Of a stretch of 64,000 nt of DNA, positions 2,465 to 58,932 are shown in pieces. The stretch covers positions 254,951 through 318,950 of the forward strand of contig JACOST010000028.1 of the NCBI GenBank assembly GCA_016178705.1. Reading direction: 5' to 3'. The position numbers and the translations under genes were made by a program. This DNA is from Deltaproteobacteria bacterium (GTDB taxonomy: Bacteria; Desulfobacterota; Binatia; HRBIN30; JACQVA1). A model generated the notes under the pieces. That model worked only from the letters and a program-made list of their open reading frames with translations, was not told the origin of the DNA and did not search any database. Numbering within the stretch: the first letter of the stretch is position 1; every line of letters begins with the position of its first letter.

Positions 2465-3612
2465 TGTCAGAGCGGGGAGCCGGTGCGATCATCAGTCTCT
2501 TCCTCGTGATGTTTCCGGTGGCGACGCGAGCGACTCAGCCCAACGCGAGCAAGGTCCCGGTCGCAGAGCCGCGCGCGATGGTGCTCGCGGACGCGTCGAG
2601 CGGCCGCGTGCTGCGCGAACGCAACGCCGACGAGTCGATCGCGCTCGGCGGGCTCGGACACCTGATGCTGTCGCTGCTGGTGCTGGAGCGTCTGGACTCC
2701 GGTGACTTGGTGACAGGCCTGACGCTTCCGGTCAGCGCGGGAGCCGCTGCCGTGCCGGGTGCGCGGCTCGCGCTGCGCGAAGGCGAGCAGCTTTCGATCG
2801 ATGAATTACTGCGCGCGTTGTTGGTGTCCGGGGCGCCCGACGCAGCGGCCGTGTTGGCCGAAGGGACGTTGGGGAGCCCCGCGACGGCGGTGGCGGCGAT
2901 GAACGAGCGCGCGAGTTCATTGGGGATGATCGGGACGGAGTATGGTTCGCTCAGCGGGACCGCCGCCAGCACGCGGCAACCGATCGACGTGACCACAGCG
3001 CGCGACACCGTGCGCGTCACCACTGAGTTGCTGCGGCATCCGCGCGCTCGCACGTGGGCGGCACTGAGTGGTCTGCCGTTTCGCGGCGGCACGGTTCTCT
3101 TGCGCAACCGCAACCAGATGCTCGGGACCGTAGCGGGGGTGGACGGGCTGCTGGTGACCGAGTCAACGCGCGGCGGCTCGCATCTGGTGGCGACGGCGCG
3201 TCGGGGAACGCTCGACGTGATCGCCGTGGCGCTCGGCGCCGCTGACAACAACATTCGCTACACAGCCGTTCGCGAGTGGCTCGACTGGAGCTTTGCGACG
3301 TTTGAGCGCATTGACATCGTGCGTGTCGGTGAGCCGCTCCGCATTCCCGTGCGAGTGCGCGGTGGGCTCGAAGGCCATTTGGTGCCGGTGGCCGGTACCG
3401 GCTGCTCACTCCTCCGACGACATGGAGAAGAGCACCACTTCGAACTGGGCTTCCAATTGCCGGACGTGTTAGCGGCGCCGATTGTCCGCGATCAGCGCGT
3501 TGGCGAAATCGTGATCCGCGAGAATGATCTGGTGGTCGCGGTCGTGCCGGCGGTAAGCCCGGCCGACTTTCCCGCCGCCGACAGCGTGCTGTCGACGGCG
3601 GGCAGTCCGTGA
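2464..3612 (+). CDS. DacA-like (PBP5/6, S11) protein with degenerate active site
   Basis: A 382-residue exported protein with a signal peptide at 1-27 (ending ATRAT) and the overall fold order of D-alanyl-D-alanine carboxypeptidases: [20 protein letters not shown], a helical region, [12 protein letters not shown] and a C-terminal beta domain. Every catalytic motif is altered. SxxK, usually in PASLTKxMT, is [10 protein letters not shown]. SxN reads SGAPDAA instead of S[GA]NDA. KTG, usually VDGLKTGHT, reads [10 protein letters not shown]. It should therefore not form an acyl-enzyme; a binding or scaffolding role in peptidoglycan is inference. It starts inside the stop codon of the PPOX gene. 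Confidence 0.8.
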
Positions 3613-39601: not shown

Positions 39602-39910
39602 ATGACGGCGCGTTATGTGAAGCTCATCGAGGTGATCGAACAGCTCGGCGTCGATCGCGATTGGCTGCGCACGCTCGAGATCGAAGAGTTCATTCATCCG
39701 AAGCGGAGCCTCGACGACGACGAGGTCCTCTCGATCGAAGACGTCGAGCGCATTCGCGTCGTCCGCCTGCTCACTGAAGAGATGGACATCAATCTCGCCG
39801 GCGCCGAAGTGATCCTGCATATGCGCGAGACGATGCGGGCGATGCAGACGCAGTTCGACGAGATCCTCGCCACTTTGGTCGCGGAGCTGCGCGAGCGGTT
39901 GAGGAAGTGA
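39602..39910 (+). CDS. cbpM: CbpM-like DnaJ modulator with MerR-like HTH
   Basis: A 102-residue protein immediately downstream of dnaJ. N-terminal wHTH-like part (LIEVIEQLGVDRDWLRTLEI, LSIEDVERIRVVRLLTEEM) and a C-terminal coiled coil (MRETMRAMQTQFDEIL). In other bacteria CbpM binds the J-domain of CbpA and restrains it; a regulatory DNA-binding role like HspR is an alternative. Confidence 0.75.
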   Translation: MTARYVKLIEVIEQLGVDRDWLRTLEIEEFIHPKRSLDDDEVLSIEDVERIRVVRLLTEEMDINLAGAEVILHMRETMRAMQTQFDEILATLVAELRERLRK

Positions 39911-39997
39911 GAAGTCGGAGTCGGAAGTCAGAAGTCAAGAATTCAGCTGCCCGCTTGCCCCGTTGTGCTAAAGTCGTTACCGTTTTGTCCGCTGCCA

Positions 39998-45629: not shown

Positions 45630-46180
45630 TCACGATCCAATTTCTGTCGCCAGGCGCGCGGCGAAGCGGCGCGCCGATCTCTTCGTAGCCTTGCTGCGCC
45701 TGTCGCAGCAGTTGAGCGCGCGTCACCTAGTCGCCGAGCACGGCAGCCAGCTCGGCGCGCCACTCGCAGAGCGCGGGGGCGAGCGTCTTTGCTCCCGTGC
45801 TTTCGATCAACGCCGCGGCGTTGGCGAGCGCGGCTTCGGCGGCATCGCGGGCCGCCGCTGCGTCGCGATGGAGGAGTGCGCGGGCGAGGACACCGTGGGC
45901 CTCGGCTTCGTACATGCCGCGCAGCGAGCGGCGGCAAAGCGCGATCGCCTCTGCTGCCACGGACTGCGCGGCCGATAGGTCACCCGTTTCAGCAGGGCTT
46001 CGGCCAGAAGCGCTGCTGCCACGCCTGCCGTTTCCTTTTCGACGTGTCCGAATATGCCGAGCGCGGCACGCGCCGGTTCGATGGCGTCGACAGCGCGGCC
46101 TCGACGGCGAGTCGTGCGGCGCGAAGCTGCCTCGCGCAGAAGGCGAGGTCGGCGTTGCCTGCGTGGCACTGTGGCCATTC
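45630..46180 (-). pseudogene. Decayed C-terminal TPR part of a cyclase-type gene (fragment 3)
   Basis: TPR-like coding potential is spread over three frames: ADLAFCARQLRAARLAVEAA, then IEPARAALGIFGHVEKETAG, then SVAAEAIALCRRSLRGMYEA and STGAKTLAPALCEWRAELAA. A TAG at 45727-45729 interrupts AVLGD from TRAQLLRQAQQGYEEIGAP, and one more shift is needed to reach RLATEIGS at 45630. At least four lesions, so a clear pseudogene. Confidence 0.65.
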
Positions 46181-46446: not shown

Positions 46447-47541
46447 TCATCCGCGCATGCCATCGATCTGGTACAGCGGCACGGGCCGGCTGAGGCCCTT
46501 CAGGTCGTGGTCGCCCAGGCTCGACGCCGTCACCCGGTCCTCCACGGCCGCGTGCACGCGGTGGGTGACGAGGATCGCGCCGCCGGGCGCGATGGCGCAC
46601 ACGCGCGCCGCGAGGTTCACCACCGTGCCGATCGCCGCGTACTCGGTGCGCCCCTCGAAACCGATCTCGCCGCAGGTGGCGTAGCCGACGGCGATGCCGA
46701 TGCCGAGCGCGAGGTCATGGCCGCGCCGGCGCCACTGCTGCGACAGGGCCGCGGTGCGCTCCCGCATCGCGATCGCAAGCCGCACGGCATCCCACGCCGG
46801 GTCGTCGAGCGGCACGGGATCGTTGAAGAACACCAGCATCCCGTCGCCGGTGAACTGGGCGATGGTGCCGCCGTGCTCGAAGATCATCGGCCCGACGGCG
46901 TGGTGAAACTCGCGCAGCACGGCCATCACTTCTTCGGGCTCGGCCGTCTCGGAGAACGGGGTGAAGCCGCGCATGTCGCAGAACAGCACCGTGATCTCGC
47001 GCCGGTGGCTGGCGAGGATCGAGTCGCCGCCGGCGGCGATCGCTTCGGCCAATTGCGGGGTGACGAACCGCCGGAGCCGGTTGAGGCGCTCCACCTCGCG
47101 CACCTTTTCCTCGACCCGCTCGCTGAGGCGCGTGTTCCACTCGAGTAGCTCGTCGGTCATCCGCTTGCGGTCGAGGCACGCCCCGAGGCGGGCGTGCAGC
47201 AGCACCGGATCGAACGGCTTCGGCAGGTAGTCCTCGGCGCCGAGCTTGATGCAGGCGACGATCGAGTCCATCTCGTCGACCCCGGAGATGACGATGAACG
47301 GGATGGTCTTCAGGCGGTCGTCGCCGCTGCGGTGCCGCAGCAAGCCGTAGCCGTCCATCTCCGGCATCTCGATGTCGGTAAGGACGACGTCGATCGCCTC
47401 CTCGGCGAGCACGGCGATGGCTTCGCGGCCGTTGCCGGCCTCGCGCACCTGGTGGCCTTCGGCGCCGAGCGACATCGACAGCATGGCGCGGTTGAGGGGA
47501 TCGTCATCGACGACGAGGACCGTGGCGGGTCTGGTGGACAT
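46447..47541 (-). CDS. Receiver-linked class III adenylate/guanylate cyclase
   Basis: A 364-residue response regulator. REC domain at about 8-122 (VLVVDDDPLNRAML, phospho-Asp in VVLTDIEMPEMDGYG, KPFDP), a short coiled coil (LLEWNTRLSERVEEKVREVE), then the cyclase domain with metal Asp in FCDMRGFTPFSE, FTGDGMLVFFN and the EYAAIGTVVNLAARVC block. It should make cAMP or cGMP when phosphorylated. Start at ATG 47541, eight bases after AAGGA; the ATG at 47550 would overlap the kinase stop (ATGA). It directly follows the GAF kinase gene. Confidence 0.88.
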   Translation of the reverse strand: MSTRPATVLVVDDDPLNRAMLSMSLGAEGHQVREAGNGREAIAVLAEEAIDVVLTDIEMPEMDGYGLLRHRSGDDRLKTIPFIVISGVDEMDSIVACIKLGAEDYLPKPFDPVLLHARLGACLDRKRMTDELLEWNTRLSERVEEKVREVERLNRLRRFVTPQLAEAIAAGGDSILASHRREITVLFCDMRGFTPFSETAEPEEVMAVLREFHHAVGPMIFEHGGTIAQFTGDGMLVFFNDPVPLDDPAWDAVRLAIAMRERTAALSQQWRRRGHDLALGIGIAVGYATCGEIGFEGRTEYAAIGTVVNLAARVCAIAPGGAILVTHRVHAAVEDRVTASSLGDHDLKGLSRPVPLYQIDGMRG

Positions 47542-47546
47542 GTCGT

Positions 47547-54557
<7,011 letters not shown>

Positions 54558-54715: not shown

Positions 54716-55551
54716 TCACGCCCAGATCCTCGCCTCGGCCTGCGTCGCCAGCCATTCCTCGCCGTTCTCACGGTGCAGCGGCGCCGCGGTGCGGAAGGCG
54801 CGTTCGCAGACGGCGTCATCGCCGCGCTGCGCGCGCATCGAGGTTCTGCCGAAGTGAAGGAGGAGGTGATCGAACGGGGTCTGCGACTCGCCGAGGCGGT
54901 TCCGCATCTCGGCGTGGAGGCCCTCCGTTTCGTTACGACGGCCGAGGCGATGTGGCAGTGAGGCGGTCGAGGCTGCGGCGATGTACCAGGGCCGGAACCA
55001 GGCCATCCGCGTACTCCTTCAGCGTGTCGCGCAGGTGGAGCGCCGCGTAGCAGGCGCGCTGCGCGTGGTCCTCGTGGGCGATCGGCGCACCGAAGAGCGC
55101 CATGATGCCGTCGCCGGTGTACTGGTTCACCGTGCCCTCGAAGCGATGCACGCCGTTGGTGAGAATCGCGAAGAAGCGATCGAGGATCGTGTGCCACTGT
55201 TCCGGATCAAGCTGCTCCGCCAACTCCATCGAGCCTTTCACGTCAGCGAAGAGAACGGTGACCTGCTTGCGTTCGCCCTCGATCGCGGACTTCGATTGCA
55301 GGATTTTGTCGGCGAGATGCTTGGGAGTGTAGGCGCGGGGGGACAGGTTGTTCGTTGTTGGGTTGTTGGTTGTTAGGGGCGGAGGGGAACTGCCTACTGC
55401 CTACTGTTGCCGCTCCGCACTCGTCGCAGAACTTCGCGGTGGGACGCAGCTCGGCTCCGCAGCCGGCGCACAGGCGCGTGATCGGCGCAGCGCACTGTTC
55501 GCAAAACTTGGCCCCCGGCCGGTTCTCGTGCCGGCAGGCCGGACAGTTCAT
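54716..55551 (-). pseudogene. Broken zinc-ribbon/class III cyclase gene
   Basis: ATG 55551 opens a double zinc ribbon (CPACRHENRPGAKFCEQC; CAGCGAELRPTAKFCDEC). A frameshift in the low-complexity linker near 55340 leaves the cyclase domain (VTVLFADVKGSMELAEQL, QYTGDGIMALFGAPIAHEDH) in another frame. That frame ends at 54933 right after the metal-site half, and a third frame then codes a helical tail to 54716 (LHFGRTSMRAQRGDDAV). The lost part includes the second half of the cyclase and all of AAA. Its ATG overlaps the stop of the upstream cyclase gene (ATGA). Confidence 0.7.
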
Positions 55552-58500
55552 GAGTTGAGCTCCCGCGCGAGGCGAGCAACTCGGCCGGTGGCTCCCATCC
55601 GCGTAAACGCTTCGAGCGCGCCGCGGAGATACGTCTCCCGCTGCTGCGTCCCACCGCGCAGTTCTGCCAACGCGGCGCGTTCCGCGAGGACGAAGGCCGT
55701 CATGTTGCACGCGCCGGTCTCGGCGATGAGGCGGTCGGCGGTGGCCAGCACGTCGTCAATGCGGGCTGCCGCCGCCAGGCCCATCTCAGCGCGCAACGCG
55801 GCCGACAGCACCAGCGCGGCATCGATCGCGTGGAGGCGACCGCTGATCGCGAGACACTGCTCCAGCGCGGCTTCGGCCATCGCGCGCGCGCGCGGGTTCT
55901 CCGGCTGCGAGCCGTGCCTGCGCCAGCGCGTGCGCGATGAACGGCGCCTGGGACCGGTTGCCGTCTTTGGAGAACGACTGGGCGTACTCGAGCGCCTCCG
56001 CCGCCTCGGCCACCCGCCCGTCAAGCAAGAGCTGTCGACCGAGCCGACTGTGCGCAATCGTGCGCGCCAACACCCCCAATGGTTCGCTGATGCGGACGGC
56101 ACGCTCGACCGTGGATCGAGCCAGATCCGGGTCGCCAGCAAGGAAACCGAGATCGCCGAGGACTCCGAGGGACCAGACCTCGACCTCGCTGTCCAGCCCT
56201 CTCGCGACGTCGATCGAGCGCTCAATCAACGCGCGCGCTTGTTCAAATGTCCCATCGCGGAGTTCGCCCCACGCCAAATTGTTGAGCACGTCCGCGAGCG
56301 CGCTGACGCCCCAATCGCGCAGGCCCCACTCGGGATGTCCCTCAGTCCAGGCGAGCTGTTGCTGGCAATTGATTCGCAGGGCTGCCAAGTCACCCTTGCC
56401 GAGCAGCGGCATAAGCGTCGGCCAGAGGGCGCAGGCGCGCCGTTCTTCGTCGGGCAGCGCGCGCACGATGCGCTCCCATTCCACGCTATGGCGGAGCCCG
56501 GCATCGAATCGATTGTTGCCGCTCTCGAACACCGACATGGCCTGGTGCAACCGACCCGCCCAGAGCGGGTCGTCGGTTCGCGCGGCCCAGTCGAGCCCTT
56601 CGCGAAACACGGAATGCGCCTCGAGCTCCGGTACCCCCAGGCGGAACGCAAGACCGAGTACGTGAAAACAGGCATCGGCGCCGAGCGCCGGCGCGCGCGG
56701 ATCATCGGCGACGGTGCGCAACGCCTCGCGCGCTTGCTGCCGGTGACGGGCCGATTCGGTGACGTCGCTGCGCGCGAGAAACGTCGCCGCGCGCGCGTGC
56801 CACTGCGCCGCCGCCAACGGCTGGCCCGCTTCGACGCAGTGATGCGCCAGCAGCGCGGCGTGCTCATCGAGCTTGTCGGCATGGGTCGCTTCGATTGCCT
56901 GCGCCACGGCGGCGTGGATCTGTCGCCGCCGCTCCTGCAACTGCGAGCCGAGGGCGACCTCCTGCGTCAGCGGATGTTTGAAGCTGTACTCGGCGATCGG
57001 GTAGAGAGCGGTTTCATGTACGAACTCGCGTGATCGCAGCGTCGCGAGCGCCTCGCCGAGCTGCGCTTCCGGTAGCGCGTCGCCGGCGGTCGCTGCCAGC
57101 ACTTGGCGGAGAATCGGCTCGGAGAACTCCTTGCCGATGACCGCCGCCGTCTGCAGCACCTGCTTGTCGCGCTCCTCCAGCCGATCGATGCGCGCGCCCA
57201 GCAAGCCGCGCACAGAAGGCGGCACATCGAGTCGCGCCACCGGTGTCGTCAGCCGATAGCTGCCGCGGCTTCCCTGGAGACTGCCCGACTCGATGAGCGT
57301 CTGGACAATCTCTTCGGCGAAAAACGGATTGCCGCCGCTGCGCGCATGGATCATATCGGCAAGGCCGGTAGTGCTTTCGTCGCTTCCCAGCAGGTCCGAG
57401 AGCAACTCGCGGATGGCTTCGGGGCCGAGCGGGGTCAGCGCGATCTGCCGATAGTACGATTTCTGCATCCAGGCCGCGCGGTACTCGGGACGGAAGTTCA
57501 CCACCAGCAAACGACCGGCGGCGCCGATCGCTTCCACCCATTCGGCAAGGAACGCCTCGCTGGCGGGGTCCATCCAGTGCAGATCTTCGATCAATGTGAC
57601 CGGCGGGCGACCGGAAGGATCGTCGCGCTGCACCACCTTGCGCAACACCGCGAAATACAGGCGCTGGCGCGCCTCAGGATCCATGCGGGGGACCGGCCGC
57701 TCCGGATCGGGCACACCGTAGAAATCGAAGATCACCGGGAGGACCTCGCGGAAGCCGTCGTCGATCAGCAACAATCGCCCGGCGATCTTCTCGCGCACGG
57801 TACGATCGTCGTCGCGTTCGCCGATTCTGTGGTACGCGCGCAACACCTGCAGGATCGGCAGGAGCGGGACGTTCTTCCCGTGCGCGACTGCCTGGGCTTC
57901 GTTGACCGCCATGCCGCGGGCGCGGCAATGTTGGACGAACTCGAAACAGAGACGGCTCTTCCCTGTGCCGGCCTCCGCCACCAGCCCAACCACTTGGCCG
58001 TGCCCCGCCTGCGCCTGCGCCAGCGCGGCTTCGAGCGTGCGCATGTCGTCGTCGCGACCGACGAAACGGGTGAGGCCGCGCGCGCGAGAGGCATCGAATC
58101 GGGTGCGCACGGCGCCGAGGCCACGCAGGACGAATACGTTTACCGGCTCGGCGACGCCTTTGACGCGAAAGGGGCCGAGATCGTCGAAGGCCACGTATCC
58201 CGACGCCAGCGCCGCGGTGGCGTAGCTGACGAAGCAGGTGTTGGCTTCCGCCAAGCTCTCCATGCGCTGCGCCAAGCCGACGGTGTGGCCCTGCGCGGTG
58301 TAGTCCATACGCAGATCGTCGCCAATTTTACCGACGACGACGTCGCCGGTGTGCAGGCCGATGCGCACGGCGAAGTCGAGCCCGTGCGAACGCTTCACCT
58401 CGCGCGAGTAGCCGCGCACTTCTTCCAGCAGATGCAGCGCCGCGTAGCAGGCGCGCTGCGCGTGATCCTCGTGCGCAATCGGTGCGCCGAACAGCGCCAT

Positions 58501-58932
58501 GATGCCGTCGCCGGTGTATTGGTTCACCGTCCCTTCGAGGCGATGGACGCCTTCAGTGAGGATCTCGAAGAAGCGTTCGAGCATCCCGTGCCATTCCTCC
58601 GGATCGAGTTGCTCGGCCAGCTCCATCGAGCCCTTCACGTCGGCGAAGAGGACCGTCACCTGTTTGCGCTCGCCTTCGAGCGCCGACTTCGATTGCAGGA
58701 TTTTGTCGGCGAGATGCTTGGGGGTGTAGGAGAGGGGGCTAGGGGTTAGGGTCTGGCTTTGAGCTTTCAGCTTGTCGCTTGAAGCTATGGCCGCGCCGCA
58801 CTCGTTGCAGAACCTGGCATCGGCAGGCAGCTCGACGCCGCAGTGTGGGCAGCGGCTTGCCTGCGCGCTCCCGCACGCGAGGCAAAACCGGGAACCCGCA
58901 GGGTTGCTGTGACCGCATGCGGTGCACGTCAT
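55548..58932 (-). CDS. Zinc-ribbon/class III cyclase/AAA ATPase/TPR protein, frameshifted near its 3' end
   Basis: Zinc ribbons at 3-48 (CTACGHSNPAGSRFCLAC, CPHCGVELPADARFCNEC), cyclase at about 85-260 (VTVLFADVKGSMELAEQL, QYTGDGIMALF, DYTAQGHTVGLAQR), AAA/STAND ATPase with AEAGTGKSRLCFEF and LIEDLHWMDP, then TPR helices. The first frame runs to 55786, where it ends in an Arg-rich non-homologous tail. Restoring 2 bases at the (CG)7 run 55881-55894 continues the TPRs (RAMAEAALEQCLAISGRLHA) to ELNS and the stop at 55548, giving 1128 residues. It is a multidomain signalling protein making a cyclic nucleotide. Confidence 0.82.
55881..55894. repeat. (CG)7 dinucleotide run at the frameshift
   Basis: Fourteen alternating C/G bases mark the point where the cyclase frame is lost. 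One added CG unit restores the ancestral frame, so slippage (biological or in assembly) is the likely cause. Confidence 0.85.

Follow-up and report, generated by a model that had tools for sequence, protein, structure and literature searches.

Alternating CG is a known hot spot for two-base deletion (PMC8284014), and that work describes a heterocyclic amine-induced CG deletion in the CGCGCGCG run of hisD, near the hisD3052 site, in Salmonella TA1538. Dinucleotide tracts have also been considered as reversible switches. In Helicobacter pylori, tract length at a CT repeat in the 5' region of oipA sets the frame (PMC10564699). PMC2651432 describes a promoter TA tract in Haemophilus influenzae as a documented case of phase variation and lists dinucleotide tracts consistent with phase variation across 16 H. 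influenzae strains, while for four genomes of the species its authors concluded that such tracts do not mediate it. PMC5231331 reports that di- and trinucleotide repeats in meningococci vary little in copy number. Screening cut-offs have been set at more than four GC/CG units (PMC5231331) and at six or more dinucleotide units, a threshold that may include tracts too stable to switch (PMC6321876).

The gene described here lies on the reverse strand of the window (the whole 64,000-nt stretch of DNA that was analysed) and changes frame at a run of seven CG units. Like the hisD gene of the hisD3052 tester strains, it lacks one CG unit from a short stretch of alternating CG, with a shift of frame as the result; the Salmonella deletions were mutagen-induced and scored in the laboratory, whereas ours is deduced from one assembly and implies no mutagen. 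As in oipA, the length of a dinucleotide tract sets the frame, but the oipA tract sits in the 5' region, whereas the tract in the window is late in the gene, is not conserved and is known in one length state. With somewhat better than even confidence, we hold that this gene, one of the 22 long members of its family in the genome, has undergone a real, recent contraction by two bases. Pfam matches give the domain order as zinc ribbon, cyclase, AAA_16 and TPR, an architecture for which a literature search found no papers. The features are as follows.

55786-58932, reverse strand: open reading frame in the starting frame, 1048 residues (ATG at 58932, stop at 55786)
Residues 3-48 of the 1048-residue frame: double zinc ribbon (Pfam DZR, 3-46)
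58729-58797, reverse strand: linker from zinc ribbons to cyclase, with degenerate heptanucleotide repeats
Residues 89-269 of the 1048-residue frame: class III cyclase (Pfam Guanylate_cyc)
Residues 289-478 of the 1048-residue frame: AAA_16 ATPase (Pfam)
Residues 880-950 of the 1048-residue frame: Pfam TPR_12 match, in the TPR region
Final ~36 residues of the 1048-residue frame: out-of-frame readout, unlike the homologues (by translation and comparison)
55881-55894: perfect (CG)7 run at the frame change (gene nt 3039-3052 of 3385)
55548-56225, reverse strand: tail-frame open reading frame (P0002), overlapping the 1048-residue frame
55548-55880, reverse strand: TPR tail in the other frame, 110 codons plus stop, similar to intact homologues

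The first-pass annotation had described the gene as truncated by a two-base frameshift in the (CG)7 run, and multiple alignment confirms this: the stretch across the site is 33 nt long in 25/25 homologues and 31 nt in the window gene, in an alignment that omits the duplicates L021, L043, L023 and L042, the gene itself (L001, L018) and seven more distant homologues (L065, L071, L072, L076, L078, L079 and L008). When those seven were aligned separately, five crossed the site without a gap, whereas L076 and L078 carry a nine-residue insertion two residues past it, where the alignment is weak. Blastp taken alone leaves the break point unfixed, because the end of similarity to the body varies among homologues (residue 1017 for L049, 1012 for L022, 1017 for L058, and various positions between 934 and 1046 for the remaining homologues listed); it is the multiple alignment that pins it. 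Similarity in the tail frame starts at P0002 residue 104-123 in the five distinct homologues with a tail match. A six-frame codon-usage Viterbi path trained on the window ORFs places the switch at 55915/55916, 21 nt away from the run, with the other same-strand switches in the window treated as gene junctions; this path and the blastp end points of the closest homologues agree with the alignment. Both frames are open for more than 90 nt around the site. We conclude that the sequence does contain the frame change and that the CG run is its correct location.

Past the run, the TPR frame stays open, as had been reported, to a TGA (55550-55548) that overlaps the ATG of the next gene (55551-55549) in an ATGA junction, and the restored length of 1128 residues given earlier agrees arithmetically with the gene length plus two bases. 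The description of the protein as giant holds in a relative sense only: among the 21 other long family matches in the genome, open frames measure 1081-1207 aa in 18 and 871, 2948 and 2973 aa in the remaining three. Homologues in related genomes, the comparison that had been suggested, include intact full-length forms. The closest, L049 (JACQEN010000367.1), shows 90% protein identity and 86% DNA identity as far as its contig reaches, from residue 142 onwards, and is read without a break down to the same ATGA overlap. Across the final 685 nt of the alignment with L049, the sole uncompensated gap is in the CG run.

We compared the tail with the body of the gene and with L049. Ka/Ks between the window gene and L049 is 0.107 in the body, 0.255 in the last 57 body codons and 0.288 in the tail, so that the tail evolves faster than the body, as does the last body stretch. 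Polarised amino acid changes in the tail number, on the window versus the L049 branch, 14 versus 13 with L022 as outgroup, 3 versus 11 with L058, 3 versus 7 with L050 and 8 versus 6 with L002; relaxed tail evolution on the window branch was not found with these four outgroups, two giving more changes and two fewer. Nucleotide changes in the tail on the window branch fall at third positions in 18/33 cases (L022) and 12/18 cases (L058), an excess over one third (one-sided binomial 0.010 and 0.004, respectively); the corresponding counts on the L049 branch are 13/33 and 15/35. This retained coding signature indicates that the tail frame was used until recently, and with no consistent acceleration on the window branch, any loss is recent, in agreement with the earlier claim. 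By the usual marks of a pseudogene, the frame is broken relative to intact homologues and relaxed constraint after the break was not seen. A loss in the very recent past, an error in the consensus and a reversible state would all fit this tail pattern, which does not distinguish among them.

A recent loss of two bases within the alternating CG run would account for a stretch shorter than in all 25 aligned homologues, and polymerase slippage at alternating CG is its likely cause. The run itself would exist because an Ala/Arg-rich TPR helix relies on GCG and CGC codons in a window of 65% G+C; at a TPR site with Ala and Arg, alternating CG can come from codon choice, and homologues encode similar residues there with mixed codons. 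By translation, the product would keep the ribbons, cyclase, ATPase and most TPRs, and exchange its last ~115 residues for ~36 unrelated ones. The copy is probably impaired or dead, and the family would be one in which copies decay where they stand.

A consensus or assembly error, in which the gene is whole in the cell and only the assembled run lacks two bases, is a less probable but substantial alternative. The run length at 55881-55894 is read from one consensus assembly, so the contraction may be a consensus error, and a tail frame without decay is what such an error would leave (equally what a reversible state would). The gap against L049 is the lone uncompensated one in the 685 nt compared, and no other CG run in the window is as long. 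Against this reading, the other eight runs of 7-8 units in the genome seem to be in frame, and 0/21 other long family matches hold a stop. Four of those runs (L129, L132, L135 and L137) have the same best frame on either side, and L139 keeps one frame from ~200 nt ahead of the run; in L130 and L133 the run is within ~25 codons of the start of the open frame, which makes them weak tests. In L138 an apparent switch at the run vanishes when a TGA is read as a residue, and one frame spans the run. Systematic breakage at CG runs was not seen. Programmed translational frameshifting, giving long and short products from one mRNA, would profit from the two frames open around the site, but all 25 aligned homologues cross the site in one frame and none needs it, and no known shift signal was recognised there by eye; we consider it highly improbable.

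The first-pass annotation had also proposed that the run could act as a phase-variable switch, with the CG run retained and slippage toggling the TPR tail on and off, and this proposal is not upheld; we judge such a contingency locus quite unlikely. Seven units do exceed both published cut-offs cited above, the list of tracts in 16 H. influenzae strains is compatible with dinucleotide switching, and the tail is still under constraint. The window ORFs are also richer in CG runs of five or more units than their own synonymous shuffles, which counts against a reading without a switch: the 24 ORFs hold 8 such runs against 2.5 in shuffles (5, 2 and 1 runs of 5, 6 and 7 units against 2.0, 0.3 and 0.1 expected), and shuffles give 0.17 runs of seven or more units per 39 kb, with 1 observed. 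Yet the run is not conserved. The longest CG run at the homologous site ranges from 1 to 6 units among the 25 homologues, with 2 in the closest (L049), 5 in L044 and 6 in L002, a paralogue in the same genome; the tract is not kept in these orthologues, a set without strains of the same species. Nor are long runs enriched genome-wide: the 6.1-Mb genome holds nine separate runs of seven or eight units (11 matches when overlaps are counted), whereas ~23 runs of seven or more are expected by a rough extrapolation from 300 synonymous shuffles of the 24 window ORFs (39 kb, scaled up with 88% coding assumed), and long CG runs as a genome-wide class of switches were therefore rejected. The run also lies late, at codon 1013 of ~1128, leaving cyclase and ATPase intact in either state, and the surveys of four H. 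influenzae genomes and of meningococci argue against dinucleotide tracts as switches. A still more elaborate version, in which a reversible CG switch toggles the last TPRs and partner binding and a length-variable heptanucleotide linker adds a second frame-sensitive repeat in the family, seems very unlikely. If a switch were real, this would be a dinucleotide contingency locus on a signalling protein in a G+C-rich environmental bacterium; as matters stand, its annotation should note the frameshift and the existence of intact homologues, and should not list phase variation.

The locus also documents the birth and death of genes in an uncultured lineage, within a large family of cyclase-ATPases. 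The genome holds 63 family matches, and 22 of them, counting the present gene, cover 600 or more residues of the query; among these, 15 begin at or before residue 24, and 0/22 contain a stop. The overlapping next gene belongs to the same family, with the following parts.

54719-55551, reverse strand: collapsed paralogue, the overlapping next gene (ATG at 55551)
55551-55405, reverse strand: its zinc ribbons, in their own frame
About 55332-55404, reverse strand: its frame break, in the heptad linker
55343-54999, reverse strand: its cyclase piece, in another frame, 95% identical to L002 over 114 residues
54847-54719, reverse strand: its C-terminal end piece, 65% over 43 residues

No ATPase match was found between the cyclase piece and the C-terminal piece. 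The ATG overlap noted earlier therefore stands, but the next gene is not intact, its ribbons and cyclase piece being in different frames, and its identity as a collapsed paralogue makes this a birth-and-death family. The family is large, and some of its members are dead in place. Two matches, L144 and L146, have no homology in any frame past ~residue 750 (3/9 family queries shown), which may suggest TPR loss in the family, though a fast-evolving tail could also escape detection; the G034 match (L146) contains a TAG, and L145, near a contig end, is uninformative on short forms. Weak C-terminal family remnants also occur at 44081-43938 (E 7e-7 and 7e-5) and 45987-45670 (E 9e-5), and 45648-46111, which overlaps the latter, is 88% identical in DNA to C28:235616-236080.

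The contig that carries L049 (G013:C160, with L049 and L140 compared with window 55412-58509) is assigned to a genome from another family. Its rpoB is 84% identical to that of the window's genome (G000) over 1142 residues, yet the signalling proteins share 90% identity, which points either to horizontal transfer of the gene pair from one lineage to another or to misbinning of the 13.5-kb contig. The second gene in G013, the counterpart of the collapsed neighbour, has a 1141-aa open frame, and its best full-length DNA match among the own-genome stretches compared is L003 (82% over 3286 nt), ~65 kb away from the gene described here. Among named homologues, the nearest belongs to a groundwater MAG that carries the label Deltaproteobacteria.

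Residues 85-274 match CyaB (PDB 3r5g) and 2w01. In alignment with 3r5g, the acidic positions Asp98 and Asp142 and the arginine Arg223 are retained, whereas Gly219 replaces Asn and Gln138 replaces Lys (residues 138-223, about window 58264-58521). We take the Asn and Lys positions to be functional cyclase residues; the two substitutions make cyclase activity uncertain, and the domain may not be an ordinary adenylate cyclase.

Degenerate heptad linkers, with units such as CTGAAAG, CCCTAAC, GTTGTTG and ACTGCCT picked out by eye between zinc ribbons and cyclase, occur in the window at 58729-58797 and 55332-55406 and in L002-L005, L007, L021, L027 and L052. Self-match at lag 7 is 0.465 in eight own-genome linkers, compared with 0.291 in codon shuffles (z 9.8; z 5.8 at lag 14), and 30 linkers from other genomes give z 4.4. 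The frame break of the collapsed neighbour sits within such a linker. An out-of-frame linker as a family-wide feature was rejected: ribbons are in frame at 38/45 distinct cyclase starts, six others have a different N-terminal region, and one, the collapsed neighbour, is out of frame. Genome-wide, the AGCTGAAAGCTGAAAGC heptad pattern was not enriched (1 match versus 2 for the reversed control), and CCCTAACCCCTAACCCC gave 5 matches versus 0, of which two adjoin or fall within the family match C32:66344-68401. Heptamer repeats described in PMC4679880 are mostly intergenic. The linker repeats may be worth more attention than the CG run. A separate degenerate period-7 array (GAAGTCA, 6.1 copies) lies at 39904-39946, between predicted coding segments.

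Elsewhere in the genome, L138 1031-1663 (G000:C30, about 428 kb) encodes a member of the UGSC family (PF24696; E 1.7e-36 when TGA is read through) that has an in-frame TGA ahead of GSC; this TGA, which we take to be read as Sec, suggests that the genome probably uses selenocysteine. Within the window, 46447-54557 encodes a sensor kinase of 2336 aa that combines roughly ten GAF domains with HisKA, HATPase, two receiver domains and Hpt, and the end of its gene overlaps the start of a response regulator-cyclase.
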